Assembly: GCA_015501055.1 (NCBI GenBank)
Contig: JADNYV010000042.1
Span: 204,288 to 268,287 of the forward strand
Direction: 5' to 3'
From: Mucidula mucida
Lineage: Eukaryota; Basidiomycota; Agaricomycetes; Agaricales; Physalacriaceae
Length of the DNA stretch: 64,000 bases
Shown here: in pieces, positions 6,664 to 44,434 of the stretch
Numbering within the stretch: position 1 is the first letter of the stretch
Layout: each line of letters opens with the position of its first letter
The notes under the pieces: generated by a model
Seen by the model: the letters and a program-made list of their open reading frames with translations, nothing else
What the model was told of the DNA's origin: nothing
Databases searched by the model: none
Position numbers and translations under genes: made by a program

Positions 6664-8039
6664 CTAGTCATTTCCAGATCGACTCGGAGCGCTGCGGCCA
6701 GGACGCGACTTGCGTGGTCGAGGTTCCGGCGGTTGGGAAGAGGTGGTGGGATTCGCGTTGCTTGCGGTCGAGCCGGCGTACCTCGACTTACGCTTTTGAC
6801 CAGCGGTTGGATTGGTAGCAGAACGAGCCCCCGTAGACTTGCGGCTTCCCTCGGCAGGCTTGTCGATGTCATCGCCCTCGCCCTGGGTGGTGACCTTGCG
6901 GGTGCGCAAAGAGTGGACGGTCTTCTCCTCGTCGCTTTCAGAGCCAGGAATGAAGGCGGGCTGATCAAGTAGAGGCACGGGAGGGTTGTAGAACGACACC
7001 GGAGGTTGCAGGGATTTCCACGCAGTGGCTATCTCCTGGACTGCGGCAAGGAGTCCAAGTTGCCCTTGTGTGCACAACACAGAGGGCTGTTGGGTGTCCA
7101 ATTTCTGTATAAAGTTCCAAAGCACATAGGGAAGGCTCAGGTGGCTGTCCACGAGCAGGCTCGCATATGGAGCAGTGAATGTCACTTGTTGACCTGTGGG
7201 TTCATTCTCTGCATCCAAAAGTTCCCGAGTGATGGGATGGTTGAAGTTACCAAACGGAAATACGCTATACTGGTGACGGCCTGCCTCACAAATGTCCTAA
7301 CACGAGGATCAGAGACTTGGATATACTTTCGTAGAAAACGCACCGCTCTGTCCCAGAACGCAGAGATGCTCCCAGCATCATACCCTGTCTCAGCGACTTC
7401 GGTGTAGAAGGCTGCTACCTTCCACAGAAGGCTCCTAGCTGGGAGCAGCCCCCAGCTATCAGTAGGAGCGTCAAAAGGCTCGTGAAGGGCATGGATACCT
7501 GGTGATCCATTCAGACACGTTCGGAGATTGTGAGAGGAACATTCCTACCAAACATCAAGTTCGACGAAGAGTCGACACAGATTGAGTCTGGGTCCTTGCC
7601 TAAGATGTATTCCAGGGATCTGATCTATACGATGCGTTTAGTTAGAGGAATGTCATGAAAATGGCGCAAAACATACGAGGAGTTCCTCTGATGCTCTCTG
7701 GACAACATGCATTAGCTGCACCTTGGATTGATCGTGGATGTTGTCGCCTTTGGTCGCTGCAACATGAGTCAAGGCACATCGTGCTCCAATCAACGAAACT
7801 GTTTCTGCACGTTTACGCGCATCATCCGAGATGGCCTGCGTAGGTTGAATGTTCTTTTCAAGCGTAGGCTGGGGCCCCAAGGTCCCCTTTGGCGGACGGC
7901 CGGACGACGACTTAGCGTAGGCTGGGAGAAGATCGTCCGGTTCAGTTTCGGGTTCAGGCGAAGTGGAGGCGGCGCGCGACTGAGAGCCGTTGTTCTTCTT
8001 AGAGCGCTTGCGTGACCGACATGTGCGCAAGGTAGACAT
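6664..8039 (-). CDS. Family-A cassette protein, pair 1
   Basis: I do not recognise a named family. Reading from 8039, exon 1 gives MSTLRTCRSRKRSKKNNG, an acidic Pro/Ser region, and then a conserved helical segment with IGARCALTHVAATKGDNIH. Exon 2 has VDSSSNLM, exon 3 the W-and-Pro segment before an FWDRA end, and exon 4 begins AGRHQYSVFPFGNFNHPITRE. The last exon contains VLWNFIQK and FYNPPVPLL, then the tail ESDEEKTVHSLRTRKVTTQG and a Lys/Arg/Ser/Pro C-terminus. Splice sites for all three introns are intact. It is divergently paired with the B gene at 8348 and is the most divergent of the four A copies. An in-frame upstream ATG (MVSLQKTGHYDC) is also conserved; I prefer 8039 because the upstream stretch is pyrimidine-rich, like a leader. 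Confidence 0.75.
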
Positions 8040-8347
8040 GACGGTAGGGCAGAAAAGTAGGCAGAGATGGGGGGAACAACAGAGAGCGCAGTCATAGTGG
8101 CCAGTCTTTTGTAGAGATACCAAGCGTCGCGTGACCTATTCAGTGCCATTGTTCGGCGAATAATGAGAGAAGCCTAAAGAGCAATAGTCGAGTGGCCTTA
8201 GATGGTGCGGTCAAAGTACGAACAATACGAATGTGACGTGTCACAGCAGAACTTGGACAAATTCATCACATGATCTTGCTTGATTCGCGATTGTGACATG
8301 ACACAAGTCACATACCTTTGTTGCTCTCAACCTTCACCAGTCCAACT
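8040..8347. promoter_or_regulatory. Divergent promoter of A/B pair 1
   Basis: This shared region of 308 bp is nearly identical to those of pairs 2 and 3. It holds an inverted repeat TGTGACGTGTCACA at 8232-8245, which contains a CRE-like TGACGTGTCA, and a second TGTGAC/GTCACA pair with a 9-nt spacer near 8293-8313. Between them lie TCACATGATCTTGCTTGATTC and GCGATTGTGACATGAC. The A side carries the pyrimidine-rich leader and the B side TTTGTTGCTCTCAACC. These look like binding sites for a bZIP-type dimer, an inference from the ACGT core only. Confidence 0.65.
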
Positions 8348-9515
8348 ATGTCCCGATACACACTCGAGCATTTTTCTCTATCAGAGGATTTTTCTGAGAA
8401 AGTTGATTCACATCAGATTCTAGCTGAAGACAAGGGTTTTTCTGTGAGTTTCTCCGCATGAATATGCCTCCCCACTGACGCGTCTTTATAGCTTGACCGA
8501 TTCGAATACAATTGCGGCCTCAATCGCGGGGAATCTGAGGATGACATATCCCTGCCAGAGAACACTGTATATGGTGTGTCTTGCCAATTTTCCGCAATTT
8601 GGTTGTTAATACAGATCTTAGCTCGTCGTAGTATCATGCAGAAGATTCGTGAAAACGGCATAGTCCTTCTACCGCCTTGCCCAACGATCACGGCCTTTGG
8701 GTCCATCACGAGCCGAAATCAAACATGTGATTTCAGCGTTCGCCAGCGATACGATGAGGTCAGTAGTTTCCGTTCCCCATTCCTCCTCTTTGCATTTATA
8801 GTTGCTACTTTAGGTACTCCCCCTCACCGATAACTATGAGTACATGGTCATTCCTTTGACATTCAAGGAACCCATATTCGTACGACATCCCGACACCCGC
8901 ATCATCACGCGGTTCGACACACCGTATACAGAACTTCCGACCGTTACACTTTCTCTTAACCCCTGCTTCCAACTGGTGCAAAACAAGCGCCTCTTATACT
9001 TGGAAGAGGCCCTATCTCTTCCCGCTGAGCTAGTTGACGCATTGTCGCTTGTACGATGGACGATTGTCCCGCCCATCCCCTTCTTCTATCATGGCTGTTT
9101 CCCGGAGAACTTTCCTAGTCGCCGTATAACGTGGCGTGACGACCAGCTTTTAGCGTACGAACGATTACATCTACCTCCGTCTCTTACGACCGACTCTTCG
9201 TCGCCTTTCGGCAAACGCTCTCGCTCCGAATCAGAAGATACGGATTTGGATTCGGAATGGGATCCCAACTATAAAGGGCCATTCTCGTACTCACCTAGAG
9301 TCGACCCTTGGGTACACACCACCTCCGAAAACGTGCGCGCGCGTTGGGAAGACGACGAGCTCGAGGACTATGTCGCCGAGCCTGTGCGAAGCTTCAAGGA
9401 GGCTTTGGCCCAACCAGCGGCTTGGGTCGACGTCTGGAACAGGCATCGCAGTAAGCGGCAGCGCAGCGATTCTGGCTGTCAAACTGTAGACGCGTCGGGT
9501 AGTGACGAAGATTGA
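8348..9515 (+). CDS. Family-B cassette protein, pair 1
   Basis: Exon 1 is 8348-8443 and the last exon runs from about 8814 to 9515; the four exons encode about 338 aa. The order is MSRYTLEHFSLSEDFSEK, LDRFEYNCGLNRGESEDD, RNQTCDFSVRQRYDE, NYEYMVIPLTFKEPIFVRHP, RFDTPYTELP, PPIPFFYHGCFPENFPSR, then the Ser/acidic tail and the basic end RHRSKRQRSDSG. Exon 4 starts with GTACTC where other copies have ATACTC. The last 300 or so coding bases and the downstream tail are essentially identical to the pair 2 B gene (13762-14930), although the upstream halves differ in many residues, a sign of recent gene conversion. A 5'-truncated GMC gene follows. Confidence 0.8.
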
Positions 9516-9970
9516 GCTGTCTTGTGCATCTTCTCTGAAGCCATGGAGCCGCGTTCTCCTGCACGCTATAGGCAGGTCGGGCCCCCAAAGCAATGGGTGT
9601 ATACAACGAAGATTATCACTGCAAGTGCAGTGGGCTCTATATATTACTGTCTTATTATTATGTATCGTCGCGTTTGCAGTATGTGCCAGCCTTGAATGGT
9701 TTATGGTGGATGTGCCCCGATAACTCTAATAAAATCTTATAATTGCGATCTACGAATTATGCCCGGTTTGTATATCTGGAGCTTGTATGGGCCCTACGCT
9801 ACAGCCACATATCGTGGCGTGCATTTCATCGTAAAAATGCGACGTTAACCATTGTCCAAGGCTTCGTCGAGTGTTGTTACTGCTACACCGACTGCACCGA
9901 CACTCCGCAACACTACACAATTCGGTACAAGAATCTTGATTTTCTCTTCGCGGACGTTTCAGCTGGTATG
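9516..9970 (+). repeat. B-associated tail linking B to the GMC fragment
   Basis: About 455 bp that recur after the B genes at 14930 and, inverted, at 41628, and in diverged form at 5855 and 24427. Across the close copies the homology runs to GCGGACGTTTCAG (9950-9962 here), where the GMC homology starts in two copies and an unrelated sequence starts in the third. Open frames within it (for example one beginning MRSTNYARF at 9743) are similar between copies only because the DNA is. Confidence 0.65.
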
Positions 9971-11232
9971 TTCTCCACCATTTCAAGTCGCATGATGCTA
10001 ATGTCTTCGCTAGCTCATGGTAAAGTGCTACCTCTTTCCTGTTTATGGTGTTTCAATCCTCGTAGCTGTCGGGCATTGGAGATCGAGAACACCTACAACA
10101 GTTTGGAATCGAATCAGTGGTACATCTTCCAGGTGTTGGAATGAATATGCAAGGTGAGACAAGATTTGTATCGTGTCACGGCTGCTTGAACTACCTGGAC
10201 GCCCACGAAATTTCGTTTTTGGGGCGCCGGGCACAGAGAACAGACATCCGGTGCAGATCATGACAAGATCAGCGTTACATGGCGAATGAAGCAGAACTAT
10301 TTGATATTCAATGGTTGTGTTCTCTTTCCGGACCCCGAACAAGGTCCCTGTCTTGCCTATTACCTGGAGGGCCATCAGAACCTATACTCGTTTGGAGGCG
10401 CTATAACATCTGTGACGTCGAAGTCTCGTCCCGAATATATAGAACCTGATATGCTGACATACTGGGAGCCTGCATATTTCCAAGGATTCATCAGAGGTAT
10501 ACCTGTTCTTCTGCGCCAGCAAAAATAACGCCCAGATCCCCAGGCTTCTCGCAGGACCTTGTCGATAATCCCAATACAGTCACGGCCGTGCATTTGAAGG
10601 CTCATCCCTCATCGAAAGGCACAGTCCGCCTGACTGGCTCGCATCCGCAAGATCTGCTTGATATTCAGAAGAATCATTTCCAGGGCGAGAACGGGCTGAG
10701 GGACGTGGAGGACTTGCGGAATGCGATCAAGCATTCGCGGGAGGTGATGAAGACGCTCCCCGTGGCGCTGCATGTTGTCGAGGAGATATTCCCCGGTGAC
10801 GATGCGCAAAGTGACGAAGCCATCGACGCACACATCTACAATAACATATTTGGTTCGCAAAGCCGGTGAATTTGCAGCGAAATGTACTCATGCTGAGTTC
10901 ATGTAGGACATCATATTTGTTGCACAAACGCGATGGGTGCAGATGACGGTATGTGTGCTCTTCATCGGCACTGAGGTCATGATATATGTTAATTTGGTCC
11001 ATGTGTAGATGAGTATGCTGTTCTTGATGGCGATTTCCGAGTGCGGGGTGTACAAAACTTGCGGGTGATCGATGCCAGCTCGTGGCCTATCGTTCCGGGA
11101 TATTTTGTCACTACGCCTTTTTATATGGTTCGTTTGGTCGTTGTCTTTTGGCTTCAGTGACGCTCATCATGTGGTATGCAGGCTTCGGAGAAGGCCGCAG
11201 ACGTGATCATTGCAGCTGCGGGGTCGAACTGA
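9963..11232 (+). pseudogene. GMC oxidoreductase, 5'-truncated copy 1
   Basis: This is the C-terminal half of an FAD-dependent glucose-methanol-choline oxidoreductase. It starts at the last codon of the exon that ends SPQL in the long copy (45005-47443), keeps the 6-nt exon CTCATG at 10014-10019, and then reads LSGIGDREHLQQFG, VWHLPGVGMNMQ-like sequence, YYLEGHQNLYSFGGA, AHPSSKGTVRLTGS, NNIFGHHICCTNAMGADD, RVRGVQNLRVIDASSWP and the end ASEKAADVIIAAAGSN. Splice sites are intact and the C-terminal frame is open. The FAD-binding N-terminus (GxGxxG) is missing, so the copy cannot make an active enzyme. It lies between two A/B pairs. Confidence 0.85.
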
Positions 11233-12110
11233 ACGCTCTTTATTATACCAGTCTTCAAGGACGATTCTTCGACCTCCTCATTGCTCAGACATTATGAGGC
11301 AATCAATCTTGAATCAATTGATGAGAAGTTGGGAAAATGTTAAGTATGGCCTAGTATTCAGATGGTCGTTTAAACCGGTTCATAACCACTGGATTTGAGG
11401 AAGGTTGAACGTCAAGTTGTGGTGAGATTCCTTGGGATTTGACTGCACGGCTGCTTGGGTCGGGCGACGGAATAAGCGACACTGCAACGACCCGGACGCG
11501 TCGTATCGTGACGAGGAGTGAGGAGAGAATTTTGTTCAACTTTTTGGAGATGCGCAAGGCCCAATGCTGAGTAGTACTGTACTAACGCGACCGGATCTTC
11601 ACGGCATGTTACGCGTTATGATTGTGAACTAAATTACCAGTAGTTCATCCAGGGTCCATAGACCATATTGGGAGCCGCGGGAGGCGGCGGCGCGAGCCGC
11701 CGCGGCGAAAATTTCCGCATTTGGGCTGATCCCGACAAAATTTACCGTTGTTACGCGTTATGGAAGCCGAATTAGTTCACTTCACGGGGCCCTGTGACGC
11801 GTTATGTGAATTAACGGTCGCGTTAGTACAGTACACAACACTGCTTTCGCTTTCAACCCGGTGAATAGTAGCATCGCTTAGCTAAGTGCGGCGGCTTGAG
11901 TTGAATAAATATATTGACTGAAGTTATCTACAAGGTTCTGGGTACTGACTACGGGGTGGTCGTATAGTACTCGGTAGGAAAAGAAATGGAACGCAAGGAA
12001 TGTGGTACAGGATGATACGCTTCTATATACGCGGAAGGAAGGAGTGTGATGGCAAAATGAAGAAAATATACTTATATACGAGGGTCGATGGTTGATCAGC
12101 GTGAGTACAT
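11233..12110. other. Spacer between GMC fragment and A gene
   Basis: This spacer holds the GMC 3' flank (about 11233-11573 and 11834-11890), interrupted by a MITE, and then the 3' flank of the A gene at 12111. The motif TGAATAAATATATTGACTGA (about 11904-11922) recurs downstream of the other A genes at 6470, 35922 and 44640. No gene is seen. Confidence 0.6.
11577..11831. mobile_element. MITE with 17-bp terminal inverted repeats and TA target duplication
   Basis: Perfect terminal inverted repeats CTGTACTAACGCGACCG (11577-11593) and CGGTCGCGTTAGTACAG (11815-11831) are flanked on both sides by TA. The paralogous spacer at 44690-44735, read in reverse complement, has GCTGACTAGTACACAACG with one TA and no insert, so the boundaries are set by an empty site. 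The 255-bp element has no coding capacity. Inside it a TTACGCGTTATG-like word occurs three times, and a GC-rich palindromic core (GCGGCGGCGCGAGCCGCCGC) lies near 11688-11707. TA duplications point to mobilisation by a Tc1/mariner-type transposase; no such gene is in this window. Confidence 0.88.
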
Positions 12111-13453
12111 CTAGTCTTTGCCAGATCGGCTAGGAGCACTACGGCCAGGACGTGACTTGCGCGGTCGAGGTTCCGGCGCAGGTTGGGAAGAGGTGGGATC
12201 CGCGTTGCTTGCGGTCGAGCCGGCGTGCCTCGACTTCCGCTTTTGTCCAGCGGTTGGATTGGGAGTAGAACTAGCCCCCGTAGGCTCATCAATGTCGTCG
12301 CCCTGGGTGGTGACCTTGCGGGTGCGCAAAGAGTACACGGTTTTCTCTTCGTCACTTTCCGTTCCGGGTGTGAAAGCTGGTTGCTGAAGAAGCGGCAGGG
12401 GAGGGTTGTAGAATGAGGAAGGTGGTTTCATCGATGACCAGAGTTGATTGAGGTTGTTGAGGAAAACGACAGCTTTGCGCTGTTGTGCAGTGCATAAGGC
12501 GGAGGGTGACTGGGTGGCTACCTTTTGTACAAGGTTCCAAAGCACAAAAGGCACGCTGAGGTGGCTATGAACGGTCAGATTCTCATACGGGGCGGTGTAG
12601 GTCACTGTTCGTCCTGTAGGTTCATGCTGATCGTCCAAAATTTCACGCGTAATTGGGCTGTTGAAGTTCCCAAACGGAAGAAGGCCAAATTTGTGGCGAC
12701 CTTCATTCTGAGCGGCCTGCGGTGAGGATTAGAGAATGAGCGGATATTTTGTTGCAAAGACGGACCTCTTGTTCCCAGAATTTCGAGATAGCTGTTGGAT
12801 CATACCTCCCCGCTATCTTCCTGTAGAAAGTTCGCACCCTGAACAAAAGGTCTATCGGTGGGCACAGCCCCCAGCTATCAGCAGCAGCATCGAAAGGTTC
12901 GTGGAGGGCACGGACACCTGTTGATTCTCTTAGTCGTGAGTAGTTGGTGAGAAGGTCGAGGCACTTACCATAAAACAGGTTCGACGAAGAATCTACACAG
13001 AGGAAGCCTGGGATCATGCCCAGAATATACTCTAGGGTTCTAATCTACGCGTTGATCTGAGTTAGAGGAATGGCGTGAAGATGGCACAGAACATACAGTG
13101 AGTTCATCTGATGCTCGTTTGAGAACGTGCATTAGCTGCACCTTGGATTTCTCGTGGATGTCCTCGCCCTTGGTCGCCGCAACGTGAGTCAAGGCACATC
13201 GTGCTCCAATCAATGAAGCTGATTCTGCACGTTGACGCGCATCATCCGGCATAGCCTGCAGCGGCTGTATGTTGTGCTGTGGGGTGGGCTGTGGCCCCAA
13301 GGCCCTTGTCGGACGGGCAGTCGACGAAGCTACTATGACTTCCTCTGGCTCAGTGTCGGTGTCATGTGCAGGGGAGTCGGCGCGCGACTGAGAGCCATTG
13401 TCCTTCCTGGAGCGCTTGCGTGACCGACGAGAATATGTGCGCAAGTTAGACAT
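12111..13453 (-). CDS. Family-A cassette protein, pair 2
   Basis: Exon 1 (13453-13097, 119 codons) encodes MSNLRTYSRRSRKRSRKDNG, an acidic linker and the conserved ALTHVAATKGEDIHEKSK helix. Exon 2 has EYILGMIPG and VDSSSNLFYG, exon 3 VRALHEPFDAAADSWGLCPP, and exon 4 opens AAQNEGRHKFGLLPFGNFNS. The next segment holds TAPYENLTVHSHLSVPFVL, then FYNPPLPLLQQPAF, ESDEEKTVYSLRTRKVTTQ and a basic tail RPRKSRPGRSAPSRSGKD. All splice sites are usable, giving about 400 aa. The basic stretches at both ends suggest nuclear targeting. Exon 1 and the C-terminal tail are almost identical to pair 3, while the exon 3-4 centre is not. Confidence 0.78.
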
Positions 13454-13761
13454 GACGGTAGGGCAGAAAAGTAGGCAGAGATGGGGGGAACAACAGAGAG
13501 CGCAGTCATAGTGGCCAGTCTTTTGTAGAGATACCAAGCGTCGCGTGACCTATTCAGTGCCATTGTTCGGCGAATAATGAGAGAAGCCTAAAGAGCAATA
13601 GTCGAGTGGCCTTAGATGGTGCGGTCAAAGTACGATCAATACCAATGTGACGTGTCACAGCAGAACTTGGACAAATTCATCACATGATCTTGCTTGATTC
13701 GCGATTGTGACATGACACAAGTCACATACCTTTGTTGCTCTCAACCTTCACCAGTCCAACT
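13454..13761. promoter_or_regulatory. Divergent promoter of A/B pair 2
   Basis: 308 bp, differing from the pair 1 and pair 3 promoters by only a few bases. The inverted repeat TGTGACGTGTCACA lies at 13646-13659, and the second TGTGAC/GTCACA pair follows TGATTCGCGAT near 13705-13727. Conservation here exceeds that of the flanking coding centres. Confidence 0.65.
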
Positions 13762-14930
13762 ATGTCCCGATACACACTCGAGCATTTTTCTCTATCAGAG
13801 GATTTTTCCGAAAACGTTGAATTGCATCAAATGCTACTCGACGACAAGGACTATTCTGTGAGCTTACTGCCATTATTACGATCACCACTGACGCGGGGTT
13901 AACAGCTCGACCTTTTTGAATACAACTGCGGTTACGCTCGTGGAGAATCCGAGGATGTTATATCTCTACCGCAGAATACCGTCTATGGTATGTGCTCAAA
14001 ATAGAACAGACGATGTGGTATCTAAACGCGTGCTCTAGCCCGTCCTAGCTTCATGCGTGGAATACGAGAAAACTCCATTGCCCTCTTCCCACCTTGTACC
14101 GCACTCACTTCCTTGGGAGACATAACCCGTCCGAATCAAACTTGCGACTTCACCAAACGCCAACGATATGACGAGGTCAGTCCTTCCGCTTCTCTATTGC
14201 TCCCAATCATCCATAGCTGCTGCTTTAGATACTCCCACTTACCGGCGTCTACGAGTATATGATGATTCCTCTTGCATTCGAGGAACCCATATTCGTACGA
14301 CATCCCGACACCCACACAATCACTCGGTTCGATAAACCATATACGGGACTTCCAACTGTTACACTTGCTCTCAATCCCCGCTTCATATTGGTCCAGAACC
14401 AGGATCTTACATACTTGGAGGACATATCACTTGTTCCATCCGACTTAGTGGATGCTATGTTACTCATAGACTGGTCAATTATTCCGCCCATTCCTTTCTT
14501 CTATCATGGCTGTTTCCCGGAAGATTACCCCAATCGCCGGATTATCTGGCGTCCCGATCAGCTAGAGGAGTACGAGCGACTCCATCTTCCTCCTTCTCTC
14601 ACGACCGACTCTTCGTCGCCTCTGGGCAAGCGCTCTCGCTCCGAATCAGAGGACACGGATTTGGATTCAGAATGGGATCCCAATTATAAAGGGCCATTCT
14701 CGTACTCACCTAGAGTCGACCCCTGGGTACACACCACCTCCGAAAACGTGCGCGCGCGTTGGGAAGACGACGAGCTCGAGGACTATGTCGCCGAGCCTGT
14801 GCGAAGCTTCAAGGAGGCTTTGGCCCAACCAGCGGCTTGGGTCGACGTCTGGAACAGGCATCGCAGTAAGCGGCAGCGCAGCGATTCTGGCTGTCAAACT
14901 GTAGACGCGTCGGGTAGTGACGAAGATTGA
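13762..14930 (+). CDS. Family-B cassette protein, pair 2
   Basis: A four-exon gene of about 338 aa, with its last exon at 14229-14930. It begins MSRYTLEHFSLSEDFSENVE and has FEYNCGYARGESEDV, RPNQTCDFTKRQRYDE, YEYMMIPLAFEEPIFVRHP, RFDKPYTGLP, LNPRFILVQN and FYHGCFPEDYPNRR. From about 14600 to the stop, and through the 3' tail, it is nearly base-for-base the pair 1 B gene. Upstream it differs in many positions (for example DISLVPSDLVDAMLLIDWSII here). It is divergent from the A gene at 13453. The function is unknown; the tail suggests a nuclear protein. Confidence 0.8.
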
Positions 14931-15393
14931 GCTGTCTTGTGCATCTTCTCTGAAGCCATGGAGCCGCGTTCTCCTGCACGCTATAGGCAGGTCGGGCCCC
15001 CAAAGCAATGGGTGTATACAACGAAGATTATCACTGCAAGTGCAGTGGGCTCTATATATTACTGTCTTATTATTATGTATCGTCGCGTTTGCAGTATGTA
15101 CCAGCCTTGAATGATTTATGGTTGATGTGCCCCGATAACTCTAAAATCTTATAATTGCGATCTACGAATTATGCTCGGTTTGTACATCTGGAGCTTGCAT
15201 GGGCCCTACGCTACCTGAAGCTGTGGCACATATCGTGGCGTGCATTTCATCGTAAAAATGCGACGTTAACCATTTTACAAGGCTTCGTCGAGTGTTTTTA
15301 CTGCTGCACCGACTGCACCGACACTCCGCGACACTACAACAGCGGCCACAATTCGGTACAAGAATCTTGACTTTCTCTTCGCGGACGTTTCAG
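14931..15393 (+). repeat. B-associated tail, copy 3, with GMC portion lost
   Basis: This is near-identical to 9516-9962, with a small insertion (CTGAAGCTGTGGC near 15215). It runs to GCGGACGTTTCAG at about 15380-15392. Beyond that point the sequence is unrelated to GMC, so this marks the right end of the left-arm tandem array. Confidence 0.6.
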
Positions 15394-29994: not shown

Positions 29995-30087
29995 ATTGGC
30001 GGGTTCGGTGAATTTACAGAGGTAACAGTGGTGGTAGAAGGGAAACAAGCGTCGGCAGTGAGTACGCGTGATCTCTCTGCTACCGCC

Positions 30088-30876: not shown

Positions 30877-33669
30877 ATGAAGCGCGGAAGTGGCTCTACC
30901 AAGAAACAAACCACCCAGCGTGGTCGTGGAACTTATGCCTCGCATGCTTGTAACGTGTGCAGAGTAAAGTGCGTGTAGAGATCCTCATGATGTGAGCCCT
31001 CTAGATATCTTTCGCAGGCGAGTGAAATGTGATGAGGCGAAGCCGGTATGCACATCATGTCAATCATCCGGGCGAGAAGACGAAGTCAGCTGCCAACTAT
31101 CATTTTCGAGATTTCACGAATAACATCTGGTTAGTGTTCCTACACTGCCGAAACTGCGCGCCGGCCAAGGACTGAGGCACATTATGAAGCAATGAGGAAG
31201 CATGCAGATGCTCTCAAGTCCTATGTGGATCTTTTAGAGTCCTTATTGGAAAAATGTCGTTTGGAACACGGGGGTGTATCCGATGAACATACATCCTATC
31301 TTCACTTCAAACCTTCCGACGAGACCGGACTACTTGAAAGCGATGCAATACCTCATAATGAAAACAAGGAACCGTCCACCACCGATGGAGATGATATCGT
31401 GTTGGAGCTCTGTGTACCTGCACGCAATCTCAAGGTCAGCAATAATTTGCCTCCTTGTATGTTGACCAAACTGATGTCTCTCTACCAGCTACAAGATCGT
31501 GATTTATTTTTCTATGGCATAGCAGCACCATTTCGCTTCGAAGAAGTGCCCATATCTCCAGAGACGAGATCTTCGTCAAGGTTTCCAAAGATGATGAACA
31601 CACCCCGTCATGTCCTACAGCTGACAGATAGCGATGGAAGCAATTACGACCCAGATTTCGACTGGTCTCGCCATCTCCCTGATATTGTTCCTCTTGACAG
31701 AAAAGAACATGACAGGTAATCATCTAACCATTCAAAGAAACATTTTCCTAACAAAAGCAGGATTATCAACCTGCTTTTCAAGTTCTTCACTTCGTGGTGC
31801 CTGCGCATCGTTCCCGCGCTCTTCTTGCGCGATATGTATGTCGCTCTGAGTGTTCCTAGACACCAGACGCCTCCCAAGACATCTCACTACTCCCCAATGC
31901 TACACAATGCCCTCATGGCACTGGCCACGGCATTTTCAGACGACCCCAAAATACGAGACTTCAAGTCTCGTAAGTATTTCTCCGATGAAGCTAAGCGACT
32001 ATGGGAATCGGAATGCGCCAAGCCAAACATTGCTGTGGTGCACGCATTGTCATTATTAGGGAGTTACCACTCGACCAATGGTGAGCAGACCATTGGGTAT
32101 GTGTATTTTGGTATGAGCACCCGTCTGTCACAGGCTCGTGAGTGCAGTATGTGTTCAGTCTTTGTCTCATGTTTACAATCTTTCAGTCGGCCTCAGTTTC
32201 GATAGTTCAACCTGGGTGCAAGCTGGTTTGATTACACATGACGATATGGTGGATCGCAATTGGGCGTACTGGACACTATTCAGTCAGGTAGCCCTCTTGT
32301 ATAGTTCATTATCATTTCCTCACTGTATTTTGTAGGATGTCTGCTGGTCCCTCTATGTCGGGCGTGACTTTGGCGTCAGCTTACCATCAGAACGGAATGT
32401 ACCGGTTCCGCTTATAGACAAAGACTACGACGAATCGCCTTGGATATACCCACCCTCCAATACGGTCTCTCAACCAAATTGTCTATCTAGGACTTTCGCT
32501 GCAACATGTGGGCTAATGCAGATTGCTAGACGCGTAATGGAAATCATGTTTGTAGGAGTTACTCTTCCGCCGCCGTTCGTTGATGTTTCCACAGATCAAG
32601 CAGTCTCAGCACACATTCAACCGGAACGAGGATAGATTTAAGCGATGCTGTGATTAGCAGGATCGAGTGAGCAGGCTCCTCGACCTCTGCGTGCCTTCCG
32701 GACTCAAATCCTTCTTTCAGTCTGCAACTGCACGAATGGAAGAGTCAGTTACCACCGGAAGTCGAACTAACGATACACAATCGTCCGTCTGCCACTCCGC
32801 ACAAATTAATGGTCCATCTTGCCTTTTGGTCGGTGTTCATTCTCCTGCATCGACCATTCTTCCACCGAAGAAAACGCGATTCCGAGGCTGTTGATCATGT
32901 CAAGGCATGTCGGCGAGCCACCGAGTCTCTTTGTCATACTAATCATCAAGTCCCATATCTCTAGCTATGCAAACGTGCTTGTGATAATATAATGGAACTC
33001 ACCGCAACATGGCGAAGCCTCTATACTCTTCGCTATTGTCCGGTCACGATGATGCAGACTATATTTTCAGCTGGGACGGTATTTCTTCTCCTGGCGAACA
33101 AAGCCACGTCGGGATTACGGGTCGCAAAGAAGGATCTTGAGACTTGCTCGGCACAGGCCGAGCTCTGTATACAATACCTGAACGAGATCGGCAAATCCTG
33201 GTATTGCGCCACGAACATCGCCGAGATCCTAACCAAGTTGTCTCGAAAGCAACTTGAACCTTTGATCGAGAAACGTACATCAAAACGTTGTTCAAAAGGA
33301 AACCAGCGACGAACGGAAAACGAGGCAGGGGCACACATCACTAATTCTTCTGAGTCGACGCCACCAGGGTCTGTGTACATGCCGCCAGCAGCGGTGATGA
33401 ACTTGCCCCCACCGCAAACGTGGTCCACCCACACAAACCCGTCTCCCGATCTGACGAATCTGGGCTCATTTGGGTACCTTGGGATGCTAGATGGAAACTT
33501 AGATGAACCTTTCATGCCGGATGTAGATTTAGCGTTCGACTATAGCGTTGGCATGGACTTGGATTTCGACATGGCGCCAAATCTTGAGTCTACACCTGCT
33601 ACATTACACGAAGGCGATGTCCGGGGTGATGAATTCTGGTCGCTTTTTGGACACCCCGCTACGTCGTGA
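30877..33669 (+). CDS. Zn2Cys6 fungal-type transcription factor 2
   Basis: It starts MKRGSGSTKKQTTQRGRGTY at 30877. The zinc cluster is CNVCRVK joined over an intron to RVKCDEAKPVCTSC, which keeps all six cysteines. Next come ADALKSYVDLLESLLEKCR (coiled-coil-like) and the fungal-specific domain with HYSPMLHNALMALATAFSDD, VHALSLLGSYHSTNGEQTIGY, DVCWSLYVGRDFGV and FAATCGLMQIARRVM. The C-terminal exon is MELTATWRSLYTLRYCPVT with FSAGTVFLLL. It stops at 33669. Block order and intron positions match TF1 (19450-22071), so the two arose by duplication and lie in opposite orientation. Target genes are unknown; the pectinase and hexokinase between them are possible but unproven targets. Confidence 0.88.
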
Positions 33670-35166: not shown

Positions 35167-35255
35167 AGCGCTCACGCGACGTCCAACAAGTCGGTTGCGC
35201 GAAGCTGGGAGATGTCCAGCTACGCCACCAGTGGCACCATAGGAGAATTCAAATG

Positions 35256-36119: not shown

Positions 36120-37480
36120 CTAGTCTTTGCCAGATCGGCTCGGGGCACTACGGCCAGGACGTGACTTGCGCGGTCGAGGTTCCGGCACAGGTTGAGAAGA
36201 GGTGGGATCTGCGTTGCTTGCGGTCGAGCCGGCGTGCCTCGACTTCCGCTTTTGGCCAGCGGCAGGATTGGGAGTAGAACTAGCCCCCGTAGACTGGCAG
36301 CTTTCCTGGACAGGCTCATCAATGTCGTCGCCCTGGGTGGTGACCTTGCGGGTGCGCAAAGAGTAGACGGTTTTCTCTTCGTCGCTTTCCGTTCCGGGTG
36401 TGAAAGCCGGCTGCTGAAGGAGCGGCAGGGGAGGATTATAGAATGTGGAAGGTAGTTTCAGCGATGACCAGAGTTGACTTATCTTCTTAACGAGGCCGAG
36501 AGCCATGTTCTGTTGTGGCGTGCATAGTACGGCGGAGGGTTCCTGGGTTGCCACCTTTTCCATGAGGTTCCAAAGTACAAAGGGCACACTCAGGTGGCTT
36601 TGAACGACCAAATTTCCATATGGAGCGGTGTATGTCACTGTTCGTCCCGTAGGTTCATGCTTATCGTCCAAAAGTTTACGCGTAATGGGCTTGTTGAAGT
36701 TCCCAAAAGGAAGAAAACTGTACGTGTGGCGACCGGCAGTGGCCTATCAGGAGGATTAGAGGCTAAGCTGATAGATCGTTGCAAAGACAAACCTCTTGTT
36801 GCCAGAATGCCAAGATGGCTGTAGCATCATACGCCTTTCTCATTGCTTGGTATAAGGTGTGCGCCCTGAACAAAAGCTCTCTCGATGGGCACAGCCCCCA
36901 GCTATCAACAGCAGCATCGAAAGGTTCGTGGAGGGCACGAATACCTGTTGCTTCACTTAGTCGCGAGCATCTGAAGGGAAAATCGAGGCACTTACCATAA
37001 AACAGGTTCGACGAAGAATCGACACAGAGTAAGCCTGGGATCATGCCCAGAATATACTCTAGGGTTCTAATCTACGCGTTGATCTGAGTTAGAGGAATGG
37101 CGTGAAGATGGCACAGAACATACAGTGAGTTCATCTGATGCTCGTTTGAGAACGTGCATTAGCTGCACCTTGGATTTCTCGTGGATGTCCTCGCCCTTGG
37201 TCGCCGCAACGTGAGTCAAGGCACATCGTGCTCCAATCAATGAAGCTGATTCTGCACGTTGACGCGCATCATCCGGCATAGCCTGCAACGGCTGTATGTT
37301 GCGTTGTGGGGTGGGCTGTGGCCCCAAGGCCCTTGTCGGACGGGCAGTCGACGAAGCTACTATGACTTCCTCTGGCTCAGTGTCGGTGTCATGTGCAGGG
37401 GAGTCGGCGCGCGACTGAGAGCCATTGTCCTTCCTGGAGAGCTTGCGTGACCGACGAGAATATGTGCGCAAGTTAGACAT
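36120..37480 (-). CDS. Family-A cassette protein, pair 3
   Basis: Exon 1 (37480-37124) is almost identical to pair 2 (MSNLRTYSRRSRKLSRKDNG). The central exons diverge: ADSWGLCP is followed by SRELLFRAHTLYQAMRKAYD, and the last exon reads TAPYGNLVVQSHLSVPFVL, then ATQEPSAVLCTPQQNMALGL. The C-terminal tail again converges (FYNPPLPLLQQPAF, YSLRTRKVTTQGDDIDEP, RPRKSRPGRSAPSRSGKD) with a short extra QESCQS segment. Splice sites are intact. The product is unknown and probably nuclear from its basic ends. It is divergent from the B gene at 37789. Unlike pairs 1, 2 and 4, no GMC sequence lies beside this pair. Confidence 0.78.
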
Positions 37481-37788
37481 GACGGTAGGGCAGAAAAGTA
37501 GGCAGAGATGGGGGGAACAACAGAGAGCGCAGTCATAGTGGCCAGTCTTTTGTAGAGATACCAAGCGTCGCGTGACCTATTCAGTGCCATTGTTCGGCGA
37601 ATAATGAGAGAAGCCTAAAGAGCAATAGTCGAGTGGCCTTAGATGGTGCGGTCAAAGTACGAACAATACGAATGTGACGTGTCACAGCAGAACTTGGACA
37701 AATTCATCACATGATCTTGCTTGATTCGCGATTGTGACATGACACAAGTCACATACCTTTGTTGCTCTCAACCTTCACCAGTCCAACT
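37481..37788. promoter_or_regulatory. Divergent promoter of A/B pair 3
   Basis: 308 bp, almost identical to the pair 1 and pair 2 promoters although the pair lies 23 kb away. TGTGACGTGTCACA lies at 37673-37686, and the second TGTGAC/GTCACA arrangement is at about 37733-37754. Confidence 0.65.
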
Positions 37789-38956
37789 ATGCCCCGATAC
37801 ACCCTCGAACACTTTTCCCTTTCAGAGGACTTCTCAGAGAAAGTCGAATCGCATCAGATGCTACTCGACGACAAGGAGTATTCAGTGAGTTTACCAGTAT
37901 CGCCACGGTCGCCTCTGACGCGCCTCGACAGCTTGATCTTTTCGAATACAACTGCGGTTACGCTCGTGGAGAATCCGAGGATGTTATATCTCTACGACAG
38001 AATACTGTCCATGGTATGTGCTGGCAACGATTCATGCGGTTTGGTCGTTCAACGTAATTTCTAGCTCGTCCTAGCCTTATAGATCAAATACGAGAAAGCT
38101 CCATTGCCATCTTCCCGCCTTGTTCCATACTCACGACCTTGGGAGGCATAACTCGTCCGAACCAAACCTGCGACTTCACCATTCGCCAACGTTACGACGA
38201 GGTTAGTCCTTCCTCTTCTCTATTGCTCCCAATTATTCATAACTCTTACTTTAGATACTCCCGTCAACCGACAACTATGAGTACATGATCATTCCTCTTA
38301 CATTCAAGGAGCCCATATTCGTGCGACATCCCGGCACCCACACAATCACTCGATTCGATGCACCATATACGGGACTTCCGAGCGTCACACTTGCTCTCAA
38401 TCCGCGCTTCTTGCTGGCACATAACATGGACCTTATATTCTTGGAGCAGGGATCCTTTCTTCCACCCGACCTAGTGGACGCCATGTTACTCGTAGAGTGG
38501 TCAGTTGTTCCGCCCATCCCCTTTTTCTATCATGGCTGTTTCCCGGAGGATTATCCTAATCGCCGGATGTGCTGGGGCCCCGATCGTCTCGAGGAGTACG
38601 AGCGACTCCATCTTCCTCCTTCCCTAACGACCGACTCTTCGTCGCCTCTTGGAAAGCGCTCGCGCTGCGAATCAGACGACACGGATCTGGACTCGGAATG
38701 GGATCCCGATTATAAAGGACCTTTCTGGTTTTCACCTAGGGTCACGCCTTGGGTACACGAGACCTCCGCAAAAACGCGCCCGAGTTGCGACGATGACAAC
38801 CTCGATGACCATGTCGCCGAGCCTGTGCGAAGCCTCAAGGACGCTTTGGCCCAACCAGCGGCTTGGGTCGACGTCTGGAACAGGCATCGCAATAAGCGGC
38901 AGCGCAGCGATTCTGGCTGTCAAGTTGTAGACGCGTCGGTTAGTGACGACGGCTGA
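37789..38956 (+). CDS. Family-B cassette protein, pair 3
   Basis: Four exons, the last 38255-38956, encode about 338 aa. The order is MPRYTLEHFSLSEDFSEKVE, DLFEYNCGYARGESED, RPNQTCDFTIRQRYDE, EYMIIPLTFKEPIFVRHPGT, RFDAPYTGLP, LNPRFLLAHNMDLIF, PPIPFFYHGCFPEDYPNRRM and a tail with SRCESDDTDLDSEWDPDYKG and RHRNKRQRSDSG. All splice junctions are intact. Its downstream tail is much diverged from the 9516 tail and has no GMC homology. Confidence 0.8.
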
Positions 38957-39428
38957 AGCGTCTCCTGCGGCTTTCTGCCGAAAACATGGAGCACATTCTC
39001 CTGCCCGCTATTGGAAGGTCGGGCCCCCAAAGAATGGGTGTATGAAACATGGAACACTCCGAGAGGGGGTTAATGTGTTTTCTACTTTGTATCGTAGAAA
39101 TTTAGCAGTATGTAGCCGAAGTACCTCAGCGGAATGTCAGTTCTGAGTATCATCGTATTTTAATCATGATGAACGCGTTTGGAATGCAATGTGGCGTATT
39201 CAGACCGGAAGCAGAGTTTGGTTACAGGCCCTCACATGTATTATCCCAGGCACTTCATAACAGATGACGTGAGGTTGTTTCAATCTCGAAGACTGAATAG
39301 CGAACTCTACTGCAAAGGCACGTCTTACAACAGATTCCAGAAGCCTGCTTCGACAAAGTCATTACATGATCTGATCCACGACGCAAGTCACATCCTTTTG
39401 TTACTCTCAACCTTCATCAGTCCAGCCA
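38957..39428. other. Diverged B tail and proximal promoter of a B fragment
   Basis: The first part (to about 39040) retains weak similarity to the B tail (GTTCTCC/ACATTCTCCTGC, GGTCGGGCCCCCAAAG). The end (from about 39360) is a B-proximal promoter with ACATGATCTGATCC and TTTTGTTACTCTCAACC. No independent gene is seen. Confidence 0.45.
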
Positions 39429-39694
39429 TGCCCCGATACACACTCGAGCACTTTTCTCTATCAGAGGACTTCTCTGAGGAAGTCGGATCACATCAGATGC
39501 TACTCGACGACGAGAAGTATTCTGTGAATATACCAGTTTCAACGCGGCACCACTGACGCGCGCCAACAGCCCAACAGTTTCGAATACAATTGCGGATTCG
39601 CTCGTGGAGAATCCGAGAATGTTATATCTCTACCGCAGAATACTGTCCATGATATGTGCTGGAAATGATTTATCCGGTTTGGTCGTTCAACGAT
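39429..39694 (+). pseudogene. Truncated family-B gene (exons 1-2 only)
   Basis: Exon 1 is intact (MPRYTLEHFSLSEDFSEEVG), with a GTGAAT donor. Exon 2 reads SFEYNCGFARGESEN, but its donor is ATATGT where all other copies have GTATGT. Homology to pair 3 B continues into intron 2 and stops at GGTCGTTCAACG (about 39683-39694). It joins directly to the inverted GMC 3' flank, so exons 3-4 were lost at a rearrangement breakpoint. Confidence 0.75.
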
Positions 39695-39969
39695 AGCACT
39701 ATTCACCGGGCTGATAGCGAAAGCAGGAGCGTTGTGTACTAAGTACTTAGCACTGTGTCGCTTATTTCGTCGCCCGACCCAAGCAGCCCTGCAATCAAAT
39801 CCCGGGAAATTTCACCAGAACTTGACGTCGAAGCTCCCTTGAATCCACGCGGCTGTGAACCGGTTGACCATTTAAATGCTAGGTCAAACTTAACATTTCC
39901 CCAACTTCTCATCAATCTCATTATGTCTGAGCAATAAGGGGGGTCGAAGAATGGTATAACAAAGAGCGT
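39695..39969 (-). other. Inverted GMC 3' flank at rearrangement junction
   Basis: ATTCACCGGGCTGATAGCGA and AGCGTTGTGTACTA match the GMC-A spacer at 44690-44725 and, in reverse complement, 11834-11875. Here the spacer meets a plus-strand B fragment instead of an A gene. No gene is seen. Confidence 0.6.
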
Positions 39970-41181
39970 TCAGTCCGACTTCGCAGCTGCAATGATCACG
40001 TCTGCGGCCTTCTCCGAAGCCTGCATACCACATCATGAGCGTCACTGAAGCAAAGAGACAAGCACCAAACGAACCATATAAAAAGGCGTCGTAACAAAAT
40101 ATCCTGGAACGATAGGCCACGAGCTGGCATCGATCACCCGCAAGTTTTGTACACCCCGCACTCGGAAATCGCCATCAAGAACAGCATATTCATCTACATG
40201 GACCAGGTTAGCATGTATCATGACCTGCCGATGAAGAATACATACCATCATCTGCCCCCATCGCGTTCGTGCAACAAATGTGATGTCCTACATGAACATG
40301 AGTACGTTTCGCTGCAAATTCACCGGCTTTGCGAACCAAATATATTATTGTAGATGTGTGCATCAATGGCTTCGTCACTTTGCGCATCATCGCCGGGGAA
40401 TATCTCCTCGACAACATGAAGCGCCACAGGCAGCGTCTTCATCACCTCCCGCGAATGTTTGATCGCATTCCGCAAGTCCTCCACGTCCCTCAGCCCGTTC
40501 TCGCCCTGGAAATGATTCTTCTGAATATCAAGCAGATCTTGCGGATGCGAGCCAGTCAGGCGGACTGTGCCTTTCGATGAGGGATGAGTCTTCAAATGCA
40601 CGGCCGTGACTGTATTGGGATTATCAACAAGGTCCTGCGAGAAGCCTGGGGCTCTGGCGTTATTTTTGCTAGCGCAGAAGAACAGGTATAGCTCTGACGA
40701 ATCCTTGGAAATATGCAGGCTCCCAGTATGTCAGCATATCAGGTTCTGTGTATTCGGGACGAGACTTTGACGTCACAGAGGTTATAGCGCCTCCAAATGA
40801 GTATAGGTTCTGATGGCCCTCTAGGTAATAGGCAAGACAGGGATCCTGTTCTGTGTCCGGAAGGAGAACACAACCATCGAATATCGAATAGTTCTGCTTC
40901 ATTCGCCATGTAACGCTGATCTTGTCATGATCTGCCATGTTTTCCGGCGCCAAAAACACGGGCTCCATAGAACATGACCATCTTGTCTCACCTTGCATAT
41001 TCATTCCAACACCTGGAAGATGTACGACTGATTCGATTCCAAACTGTTGTAGGTGTTCTCGATCTCCAATCCCCGACACTACGACGATTAGAACACCATA
41101 AACAGGAAAGAGGTAGCACTTTACCATGAGCTAGCGAAGACATTAGCATCATGGGACTTGAAATGGTGGAGAGCATACCAG
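39970..41181 (-). pseudogene. GMC oxidoreductase, 5'-truncated copy 2
   Basis: This has the same extent as the copy at 9963-11232, inverted. It begins at the CTG-intron junction after the tail, keeps the CTCATG 6-nt exon at 41125-41130, then GIGDREHLQQFG, YYLEGHQNLYSFGGA, AHPSSKGTVRL-type sequence (as THPSSKGTVRL), GHHICCTNAMGADD, YAVLDGDFRVRGVQNLRV and ASEKAADVIIAAAKSD. One base is missing at the start of the exon after the 6-nt exon (TGTCGGGG for CTGTCGGGC). The FAD-binding N-terminus is absent. Confidence 0.85.
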
Positions 41182-41191
41182 CTGAAACGTC

Positions 41192-41628
41192 CGCGAAGAG
41201 AAAATCAAGATTCTTGTACCGAATTGTGTAGTGTTGCGGAGTGTCGGTGCAGTCGGTGTAGCAGTAACAACACTCGACGAAGCCTTGGGCAATGGTTAAG
41301 GTCGCATTTTTACGATGAAATGCACGCCACGATATGTGGCTGTAGCGTAGGGCCCATACAAGCTCCAGATATACAAACCGGGCATGATTCGTAGATCGCA
41401 ATTATAATATTTAATTAGAGTTATCGGGGTACATCAACCATAAATCATTCAAGGCTGGCACATACTGCAAACGCGACGATACATAATAATAAGACAGTAA
41501 TATATAGAGCCCACTGCACTTGCAGTGATAAACTTCGTTGTATACACCCATTGCTTTGGGGGCCCGACCTGCCTATAACGTGCAGGAGAACGCGGCTCCA
41601 TGGCTTCAGAGAAGATGCACGAGACAGC
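41192..41628 (-). repeat. B-associated tail, inverted copy
   Basis: This is near-identical to 9516-9962 in reverse orientation, linking the pair 4 B gene to the truncated GMC copy. The GCGGACGTTTCAG end lies at about 41180-41195. Confidence 0.65.
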
Positions 41629-42795
41629 TCAATCTTCGTCACTACCCGACGCGTCTACAATTTGACAGCCAGAATCGCTGCGCTGCCGCTTACTGCGATG
41701 CCTGTTCCAGACGTCGACCCAAGCCGCTGGTTGGGCCAAAGCCTCCTTGAAGCTTCGCACAGGCTCGGCGACATAGTCCTCGAGCTCGTCGTCTTCCCAA
41801 CGCGCGCGCACGTTTTCGGAGTGGTGTGTACCCAGGGGTCGACTCTAGGTGAGTACGAGAATGGCCCTTTATAATTGGGATCCCATTCTGAATCCAAATC
41901 CGTGTCCTCTGATTCGGAGCGAGAGCGCTTGCCCAGAGGCGACGAAGAGTCGGTCGTGAGAGAAGGAGGAAGATGGAGTCGCTCGTACTCCTCTAGATGA
42001 TCGGGGCCCCACCTGATTCGGCGATTGGGATAATCCTCCGGGAAACAGCCATGATAGAAGAAAGGGATTGGCGGGACAATTGACCACGGTACGAGGAACA
42101 TGCCATCCACTAGGTCGGGTGGAAGAAAGGATCCCTGCTCCAAGTATACAAGATTCTGGTTGTGAACCAGTAGGAAGCGGGGATTAAGAGCCAGTGTGAC
42201 GCTCGGAAGTCCCGTATATGGTGTATCGAATCGTGTGATGATGCGGGTGTCGGGATGTCGTACGAATATGGGCTCCTTGAATGTAAGAGGAATGATAATG
42301 TACTCATAGTTGTCGGCAAACGGGAGTATCTGAAGTAACAGCTATAGATGATTGGGAGCAATGGAGAAGAGGAAGGACTCACCTCGTCGTAACGTTGGCG
42401 AATGGTGAAGTCGCACGTTTGATTCAGACTGGTTATATCTTCCAGGACCGTAAGTGTGGCACAAGGCGGAAAGAGGGCAATGGAGTTTTCTCGTATTCCG
42501 CGCATAAGGCTAGGACGAGCTAGAGCACGCATTTAGAAACCAGATTGTTTGACCTATTTCAAGCACATACCATGGACGGTATTTTGCGGGAGAGAAATCA
42601 CATCCTTGGATTCCCCACGAGCGTAACCACAGTTGTATTCGAAAAGATCGAGCTGTCGAGGCGCGTCAGAGGCGACCGTGGCGATACTGGTAAACTCACT
42701 GAATACTCCTTGTCGTCGAGTAGCATCTGATGCGATTCGACTTTCTCTGAGAAGTCCTCTGAAAGGGAAAAGTGTTCGAGGGTGTATCGGGGCAT
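41629..42795 (-). pseudogene. Family-B gene of pair 4, frameshifted near the C-terminus
   Basis: Exons 1-3 and most of exon 4 (from 42329) are intact: MPRYTLEHFSLSEDFSEKVE, FEYNCGYARGESKD, LNQTCDFTIRQRYDE, LEQGSFLPPDLVDG, PPIPFFYHGCFPEDYP. Near 41819-41822 one base of a CACC/TCC context present in the pair 1 and 2 copies is missing (ACCACTCCG against ACCACCTCCG). The frame then changes after WVHTT and stops at 41655. The normal tail (RARWEDDELEDYVAEPV to SGSDED, ending at 41629) is out of frame. About 60 conserved C-terminal residues, including the basic RSKRQRS, are replaced. The protein may still be made with a different tail. The divergent partner A gene is intact. Confidence 0.78.
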
Positions 42796-43091
42796 AGTTG
42801 GACTGGTGAAGGTTGAGAGCAACAAAGTGTCATGTCACAATCGCGAATCAAGCAAGATCATGTGATGAATTTGTCCAAGTTCTGCTGTGACACGTCACAT
42901 TCGTATTGTTCGTACTTTGACCGCACCGTCTAAGGCCACTCGACTATTGCTCTTTAGGCTTCTCTCATTATTCGCCGAACAATGGCACTGAATAGGTCAC
43001 GCGACGCTTGGTATCACTACAAAAGACTGGCCACTATGACTGCGCTCTCTGTTGTTCCCCCCATCTCTGCCTACTTTTCTGCCCTACCGTC
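42796..43091. promoter_or_regulatory. Divergent promoter of A/B pair 4, with 12-bp deletion
   Basis: 296 bp. It keeps the inverted repeat TGTGACACGTCACA at 42886-42899 (same element, other strand). On the B side the other promoters read ACACAAGTCACATACC before TTTGTTGCTCTC; here about 12 bp are missing (ACACTTTGTTGC), which removes the GTCACA half-site of the second repeat. Confidence 0.65.
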
Positions 43092-44434
43092 ATGTCTAAC
43101 TTGCGCACATATGCTCGTCAGTCACGCAAGCGCTCCAGGAAGGACAAGGGCTCTCAGTCGCGCGCCGACTCCCCTGCACATGACACCGACACTGAGCCAG
43201 AGGAAGTCATAGTAGCTTCGTCGACTGCCCGTCCGACAAGGGCCTTGGGGCCACAGCCCACCCCACAACGCAACATACAGCCGTTGCAGGCTATGCCGGA
43301 TGATGCGCGTCAACGTGCAGAATCAGCTTCATTGATTGGAGCACGATGTGCCTTGACTCACGTTGCGGCGACCAAGGGCGAGGACATCCACGAGAAAACC
43401 AAGGTGCAGCTAATGCATGTCGTCCAGCGAGCATCAAAGGAACTCACTGTATGTTCTGCGCCATCTTCACGCCAATCCTCTAACTCAGATCAACGCGCAG
43501 ATTAGAACCCTAGAGTATATTCTGGGCATGATCCCAGGCACACTCTGTGTAGATTCTTCGTCGAACCTGTTTTATGGTAAGTGCCTCGACCTTCTCACCA
43601 ACGACTCACGACTAAGAGAATCAACAGGTGTCCGTGCCCTCCACGAACCTTTCGATGCTGCTGCTGATAGCTGGGGGCTGTGCCCACCTAGACCGCTTTT
43701 GCTCAGAGTGCGGAAATTATATACGGGCATGGCTGAGGCATATGATCCTAGAGCTATCTCGGAGTTCTGGGAACAAGAGGTCCGTCATTGTAACAAAATA
43801 TCAGCTCAGTCTCTAATCCTCACGGCAGGCCGCTCAGAATGAAGGTCGCCACCAATTCGGCCTTCTTCCGTTTGGGAACTTCAACAGCCCAATTACGCGC
43901 GAACTTCTGGATGACAATCATGAACCGACGGGCCAGCAAGTCACCTTCTATGCCCCATATGCGAACCTAATCGTTGAGAGTCACCTGAGCCCGCATTTTG
44001 TGCTTTGGAATCTTTTACAAAAGGTAGCCAACCAGGCGCCCTCCGCCTTATGCACTGCACCACAACGCGTGGTTGTTAGCTTCCTCAACAACATCAATGA
44101 ACTCTGGTCATTGATGAAACCACCTTCCTCATTCTACAATCCTCCCCTGCCGCTTCTTCAGCAACCAGCTTTCACACCCGAAACGGAAAGTGACGAAGAG
44201 AAAACCGTCTACTCTTTGCGCACCCGCAAGGTCACCACCCAGGGCGACGACATGGATGAGCCTACGGGGGCTAGTTCTACTCCCAATCCAACCGCTGGAC
44301 AAAAGCGGAAGTCGAGGCACGCCGGCTCGACCGCAAGCAACGCGGATCCCACCTCTTCCCAACCTGCGGCGGAACCTCGACCGCGCAAGTCACGTCCTGG
44401 CCGCAGTGCTCCGAGCCGATCTGACAAAGACTAG
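43092..44434 (+). CDS. Family-A cassette protein, pair 4
   Basis: Exons 43092-43448, 43489-43576, 43628-43779 and 43829-44434 give 400 aa with consistent phases. The first intron is only 40 nt. Sequence order is MSNLRTYARQSRKRSRKDKG, IGARCALTHVAATKGEDIHE, EYILGMIPGTLCVDSSSNLF, GVRALHEPFDAAADSWGLCP, NEGRHQFGLLPFGNFNSPIT, YAPYANLIVESHLSPHFVL, FYNPPLPLLQQPAFTP, ESDEEKTVYSLRTRKV and the basic end RPRKSRPGRSAPSRSDKD. SSSNLFYG..ALHEPFD resembles, in my reading only, the N..L....H..FD part of HNH-type folds, but no complete HNH motif is present. The centre differs strongly from the other A copies. Confidence 0.8.

Follow-up and report, generated by a model that had tools for sequence, protein, structure and literature searches.

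HNH nucleases are defined by a His-Asn-His catalytic triad with about eight residues between the Asn and the last His, and they are frequent in homing elements. The HD1/HD2 mating-type pairs of the Agaricomycetes are multi-copy genes lying head to head across a short shared intergenic region. Nuclease toxin/immunity pairs (polymorphic toxins, toxin-antidote drivers) consist of a nuclease gene with an adjacent partner and include partner-only arrays; HNH nucleases and nuclease-partner pairs as such are already known. A divergent two-gene cassette that resembles each of these systems in part was analysed in a 64,000-nucleotide stretch of the wood-decay mushroom Mucidula mucida (contig JADNYV010000042.1, here C405, bases 204288–268287; this whole stretch is called the window), and its two genes are referred to as A and B. 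Gene A carries an HNH-type triad, gene B is a sister of A from which the last triad His has been lost, and the two are held together by a common intergenic region. The reading preferred here, to which we give an even chance, is that A is an HNH-like nuclease and that B, co-regulated with it, is a probably inactive sister protein dedicated to A as its inhibitor or partner.

Splice sites that are shared among the copies served to rebuild the gene models. The result was ten spliced models, which make up four head-to-head A/B pairs and two solo B genes; every one has four exons and introns of 47–55 bp with GT-AG ends, and six (A2, A3, B1, B2 and the two solo B genes) are identical in every residue to NCBI proteins of M. 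mucida. The proteins are 396–408 residues long for A and 338–340 residues long for intact B. The spliced models confirmed the original prediction in its four pairs, its two solo B genes, its four exons and its spacing of about 300 bp.

Pair 1 consists of A1 (6664–8039, minus strand, 408 residues; exons 8039–7677, 7624–7549, 7498–7344 and 7296–6664; triad H111, N143, H152) and B1 (8348–9515, plus strand, 338 residues; exons 8348–8443, 8492–8573, 8622–8758 and 8814–9515; NCBI protein P0003). Pair 2 consists of A2 (12111–13453, minus strand, 396 residues; exons 13453–13097, 13044–12969, 12917–12766 and 12716–12111; P0011; H109, N141, H150) and B2 (13762–14930, plus strand, 338 residues; exons 13762–13857, 13906–13987, 14039–14175 and 14229–14930; P0001). 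The third pair is made up of A3 (36120–37480, minus strand, 402 residues; exons 37480–37124, 37071–36996, 36944–36793 and 36743–36120; P0012; H109, N141, H150) and B3 (37789–38956, plus strand, 338 residues; exons 37789–37884, 37932–38013, 38065–38201 and 38255–38956). Pair 4 lies in the opposite orientation, with A4 on the plus strand (43092–44434, 396 residues; exons 43092–43448, 43501–43576, 43628–43779 and 43829–44434; H109, N141, H150) and a broken B4 on the minus strand (41655–42795; exons 42795–42700, 42652–42571, 42519–42383 and 42329–41655). Compared with a copy on contig C138 that is 99.9% identical, B4 has lost one nucleotide in exon 4, which puts the tail out of frame and gives a protein of 329 residues with an aberrant tail; the B end of 41629 given by the original prediction hid this frameshift, the gene itself being present as predicted. 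The C138 copy (C138:408000–416730), the genes of which are 99.8–99.9% identical to those of the window, keeps B4 intact and carries one inserted base in exon 4 of its A4, and these reciprocal frameshifts may be real or may be assembly errors. The solo B genes are found at 4687–5855 (plus strand, 339 residues; exons 4687–4782, 4832–4913, 4964–5100 and 5151–5855; P0005) and at 24428–25601 (minus strand, 340 residues; exons 25601–25506, 25458–25377, 25325–25189 and 25135–24428; P0004).

The assignment of A was made from its conserved residues. When seven A proteins are aligned, no His or Asn column is invariant apart from H96, N132 and H141 (numbering of P0014), with eight residues between the Asn and the last His; the triad is present in all four window A genes and stays invariant in two joint alignments of A and B. 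A likeness to the family HNH_2 (PF13391) is seen in the C-H-N-H order of A, which in the relatives on C211 and C838 takes the form CxxC..AH..N..CxxCH. These relatives, two of the seven A members, were matched by the Pfam profile over nearly its whole length and below threshold (E 0.082, 13.2 bits, cut-off 21), and the window A genes scanned gave no match to it. A differs from HNH_2 in this sub-threshold score, in the lack of paired cysteines in the window copies, in a further C-terminal domain and in having a paralogous partner without the last His. When the A profile was compared with the genome's own accepted HNH_2 member, a gene on C271 (33.7 bits, cut-off 21), the score was 34.0, and the best of 200 shuffles of the C271 gene reached 25.8; among 89 window open reading frames of 120–300 residues, the top ten were A exons, followed by three B exons with scores of up to 28.3, and 24.3 was the highest score of an unrelated frame. 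The C271 comparison is weak when taken by itself; the HNH claim is carried by the triad and the Cys pattern. A search of solved structures with the A profile gave no matches, PADLOC gave none, and NCBIfam returned a single weak and irrelevant match. Weak Pfam matches to SOG2, H_lectin, Mcm-like_N, TspB, DUF4100 and Rpb2_45 lay below the cut-off in one protein each and were taken as chance. By its residues A would belong with the HNH nucleases as an HNH-like protein, though it is not filed as a member of HNH_2.

The relation of B to A was determined with profiles and intron positions. An alignment with hhalign of an A profile (7 proteins) against a B profile (10 proteins) gave a probability of 95.4% and an E value of 1.8e-8 (92.5% and 5e-7 under another setting). 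Three introns fall at shared columns 127, 155 and 212, in phases 0, 1 and 0, in both A genes (A2, A3) and all four B genes (B1, B2, both solo B) compared in a plain MAFFT alignment built without knowledge of the introns. On this profile and intron evidence A and B are paralogues. At the column of A2 H150, all 11 B proteins have M, I, F, K or R in two joint alignments, and at the column of A2 N141 an Asn is found in nine of the ten B proteins that cover it. B is called probably inactive because of the loss of the last His. In all six window B genes exon 1 has a His 11 residues from its end, at the same distance as the first triad His of A; no candidate for it is present in the B protein of Hymenopellis (P0008) or in the B models of C154, C926 and C971.

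The intergenic regions of pairs 1–4 measure 308, 308, 308 and 296 bp and are presumed to act as bidirectional promoters. The first (8040–8347) has AACAATGG at 8146–8153 on the minus strand and CACATGATC from 8267, 81 bp before the B1 start codon; the second (13454–13761) has the corresponding words at 13560–13567 (minus strand) and from 13681 (plus strand); the third (37481–37788), 100% identical to the first, has them at 37587–37594 (minus strand) and from 37708 (plus strand); and the fourth (42796–43091) has them at 42978–42985 (plus strand) and from 42864 (minus strand). All four are 98.6–100% identical, while the synonymous divergence (dS) nearby exceeds 1. The solo B genes are preceded by CACGTGATC, from 4626 in the first case and from 25682 (minus strand) in the second. 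Of the 13 B upstream regions scored, those of the window included, 12 have the word CACRTGAYC, which was chosen by eye, at 45–94 bp ahead of the start of B (the exception, on C154, reads CACATGACT); the 13 regions are not all independent, several of them being alleles or closely similar copies. In the 64-kb window the word occurs six times, exactly at the six B genes. AACAATGG was found in all 11 A/B intergenic regions scored, C71 (where the region could not be cut), C211 and C838 having been left out, and four of its six occurrences in the window lie within the intergenic regions of the pairs. Words that had not been picked beforehand were also compared: one region from each of four lineages had one 9-mer, GAACAATGG, and three 8-mers in common, and no shared word of 8 or 9 letters arose in 300 dinucleotide shuffles. 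The promoter words are kept among lineages that are only about 25% identical in protein (C438, C926, C971). We take AACAATGG to resemble HMG-box sites and CACRTGA to resemble Cbf1/E-box sites.

Pairing was then scored over the 59.9-Mb assembly, with A loci defined as matches of A-type exon 1 and B loci as clustered B-type matches, both haplotypes being counted; the count excludes an A-type piece at 115517 of C882, which covers exons 2–3 and contains stops. A divergent B gene was found at 21 of 23 A loci, with 297–924 bp between the matches, distant paralogues included. An A gene was detected at 21 of 54 B loci (20 of 46 among loci of at least 500 bp), and the remaining 33 B loci include tight same-strand arrays on C211 and C882; in those of C211 the gaps are of about 0.55 kb, too short for an A gene. 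The A searches had a shorter reach than the B searches, so some of the solo B genes possibly have an undetected A partner; eight of the 54 B loci fall short of 500 bp, and a contig end truncates one. The strict pairing given in the original prediction is thus near-strict for A and does not hold for B. Its proposal that the two products work together, drawn from pairing and a common promoter, gained support from the pairing of distant paralogues and from the words kept across lineages; the recognition or selfish role that it offered stays conjectural, and it had overlooked the paralogy, the A triad and the loss of the last His in B. No domain that names the proteins had been recognised, which stands at curated cut-offs and misses the HNH-type residue pattern of A. 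Within this genome A and B were not found to be mainly unlinked, nor did they match a known transposon or housekeeping family. Among the named matches of protein searches, A was found in Mucidula only and B also in Hymenopellis radicata (these searches need shared five-residue words, and absence elsewhere is not shown by them). As a separate observation, C211 and C882 (about 2–23 kb and 94–116 kb, respectively) carry B-like arrays with a few A/B pairs interspersed; the arrays are alike on both contigs and are perhaps two haplotypes.

In the mechanism proposed, each cassette would go back to a single HNH-like gene that was duplicated long ago in divergent orientation. The A protein, with its triad kept, would most likely be a metal-dependent DNA nuclease or nickase of the nucleus, and B its sister without the last His, probably inactive; basic ends read by eye suggest a nuclear location. 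The two would be made together from one bidirectional promoter, and B would most likely bind A via the shared domains and restrain, position or target it, with a possible role in genome defence or intragenomic conflict. Since A is rarely alone and B often is, the pairing pattern is easier to reconcile with an inhibitor or antidote than with an obligate heterodimer.

Several results weigh against the nuclease-and-sister reading. In the case of A, no family was assigned to either protein at the curated cut-offs of Pfam and NCBIfam, and the window A genes are without the paired cysteines of their C211 and C838 relatives. Earlier alignments of A that used less complete models showed the triad as invariant in part (one His in one alignment; both His residues, and not the Asn, in another). 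Under another profile setting the margin of the HNH_2 comparison was gone (27.8 against 27.6 for the best of 20 shuffles). AlphaFold2 gave low-confidence models (mean predicted local distance difference test score 36.9 for A and 31 for B) that are uninformative on the fold. In the case of B, the His near the end of exon 1 is matched to the first His of A in the MAFFT alignment and is one residue off or unaligned in the two joint alignments; the window B genes may keep this first His, in which case B would be less degenerate than "dead". With regard to the pair, A loci without a detectable B were found on C570 and C349 (the C349 match having an internal stop), and the intact A4 beside a broken B4, with the reverse on C138, means that single copies can do without their partner and that no strict one-to-one rescue is required, provided that the frameshift is real. 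Lastly, GAACAATGG and CACRTGAYC were found 20–50 bp apart at five places in the genome, corresponding to three loci (two with an apparent second copy) on C61, C770, C91, C302 and C316. These contigs were not matched by the A/B searches, the 20–50 bp spacing excludes the regions of the A/B family itself, and a reversed control gave none, so the words are not exclusive to A/B.

A wider form of the proposal can be stated, and it is decidedly tentative. The cassettes would form a nuclear-encoded, multi-locus nuclease-immunity system in which the HNH-like nuclease is matched by its inactivated paralogue as cognate immunity protein, a single conserved bidirectional promoter, whose words are HMG-box-like (AACAATGG) and E-box-like (CACRTGA), drives both, and orphan immunity genes stand in arrays elsewhere in the genome. 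Haplotypes would come to differ in such a system, which would take part in self/non-self or intragenomic conflict of the dikaryotic mushroom.

Two alternatives to the nuclease-and-sister reading survive best, and both are held to be unlikely. According to the first, A and B would act only as a heterodimer, in a DNA-binding or regulatory complex of the HD1/HD2 kind, the HNH remnant being a non-catalytic DNA-binding fold. The multi-copy head-to-head arrangement, the common intergenic region, the conserved ends with divergent middles, the basic ends (judged by eye) and the lack of paired cysteines in the window copies are all in line with it. Unlike HD1/HD2 genes, A and B have no homeodomain, are homologous to each other and are HNH-like: no Pfam homeodomain was found in the two A and two B proteins scanned. 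The four Homeobox_KN matches of the genome lie on C826, C86, C451 and C209, and the STE3 matches are likewise on contigs other than C405. A mating-type pair of the homeodomain class was on these grounds ruled unsupported. The wider heterodimer proposal also has to explain an H-N-H triad that is invariant over a large divergence and would be unneeded for pure DNA binding, and solo B arrays fit it badly.

According to the second, the cassette is a selfish toxin-antidote system in which A would be a self-damaging nuclease, B its neutraliser and the solo B arrays orphan immunity genes, a proposal of similarly low probability. The asymmetric pairing (A paired at 21 of 23 loci, B without a detected A at 33 of 54) speaks for it. 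The HNH/EndoVII-fold toxin domain Tox-DHNNK has been listed among domains that occur in fungi, and a use of such domains by fungi in conflict has been suggested (PMC3482391). The toxin-antidote proposal is opposed by the intact A4 beside a broken B4, and its arrays would be weakened to the extent that some solo B genes have an unseen A, given the reach of the A search, the short loci and the contig end. Relative to the nuclease toxin/immunity pairs described so far, A/B also differs in that the partner is a paralogue, the genes are divergent instead of forming an operon, and they are eukaryotic genes with introns.

A third alternative, passive expansion, is less probable again: segmental duplications that also took in a GMC-oxidoreductase fragment would have spread an old pair, and A and B would no longer have a function in common. 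The duplicated blocks do contain a GMC-oxidoreductase-like stretch, detected by blastn in direct and inverted copies at 9959–11357, 39952–41185 and 44859–46229 (the piece 45363–45968 matches Pfam GMC_oxred_C), and since this stretch was duplicated with the pairs in both orientations, the local cassette was spread at least in part by segmental duplication. Decayed copies occur as well. Besides the frameshifts, a B remnant is found at 39348–39692 (plus strand; B upstream end and the region of exons 1–2, 74–85% identity), as had been predicted near 39429; a second one predicted near 6250 was reduced to a weak 65-bp match at 6330–6394 (plus strand; 78% identity to the start of B1 exon 2). Passive expansion is opposed by ratios of nonsynonymous to synonymous divergence (dN/dS) of 0.32–0.45 between A copies, by the promoter words kept at about 25% protein identity and by the pairing of 21 of 23 A loci; among B genes dN/dS is 0.18–0.48, the highest value involving the frameshifted B4.

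The pairs are 77–91% identical over about 3 kb, beyond what chance would give, and their divergence is uneven. Whole-gene dS between A copies is 0.16–0.70; over the first 50 codons of B1 against four other B genes it reaches 0.76–1.5, and A1 differs from the other A genes by a dS above 1 in its middle. Divergence is lower at the 3′ ends of the coding sequences (dS of about 0.2 for A1 against the others, 0–0.1 for some B pairs) and at the start of A among A2–A4. The copies are therefore mosaics with diverged middles. In a few windows of 40–50 codons dN exceeds dS (for example the first 50 codons among A2–A4, with dS 0, and codons 250–300 of B3 against the second solo B gene), these being raw values with no significance attached.

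The weakest alternative, a mobile element with A as a homing-type or transposon-derived nuclease, is highly improbable: HNH nucleases are frequent in homing elements and the loci are many and dispersed, but the local copies lie within duplications that also carry pieces of host genes, A and B keep three spliceosomal introns, and Tandem Repeats Finder reported no repeats in the window (terminal repeats and target-site duplications were not searched).

In the open literature (titles and starts of abstracts) no description was found of a divergent pair of an HNH-like gene and its altered paralogue, multiplied with shared promoter words, in a mushroom, and no model of Pfam, NCBIfam or PADLOC names the A/B pair. 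With about twenty loci in one assembly, both haplotypes counted, A/B lends itself to study as a candidate nuclease-partner or conflict system of eukaryotes. Should A cut DNA under the control of B, this would be unusual in fungi, and the solo B arrays would make the toxin-antidote question directly testable; if not, A/B would still be a good case of gene pairs that hold a shared promoter while their proteins diverge.

Copies of parts of the window with 97–99% identity are found on C866 and C138, and C138 matches the far flank of the window at 82–93%. The C138 copy spans the ATP-synthase gene at 47942–48742, which suggests alleles and not a remote duplicate. Pfam matches among ten window open reading frames include a tRNA uracil-5-methyltransferase, a class IV aminotransferase, a cyclophilin-TPR protein, a fungal transcription factor, a hexokinase, an ATP synthase and a GMC oxidoreductase. 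Two similar-looking sets of open reading frames lie in opposite orientation at 19453–21520 (minus strand) and 31135–33666 (plus strand), with a Pfam Fungal_trans match in 20939–21520 and none in the piece 31135–31716; these sets are perhaps another local duplication.

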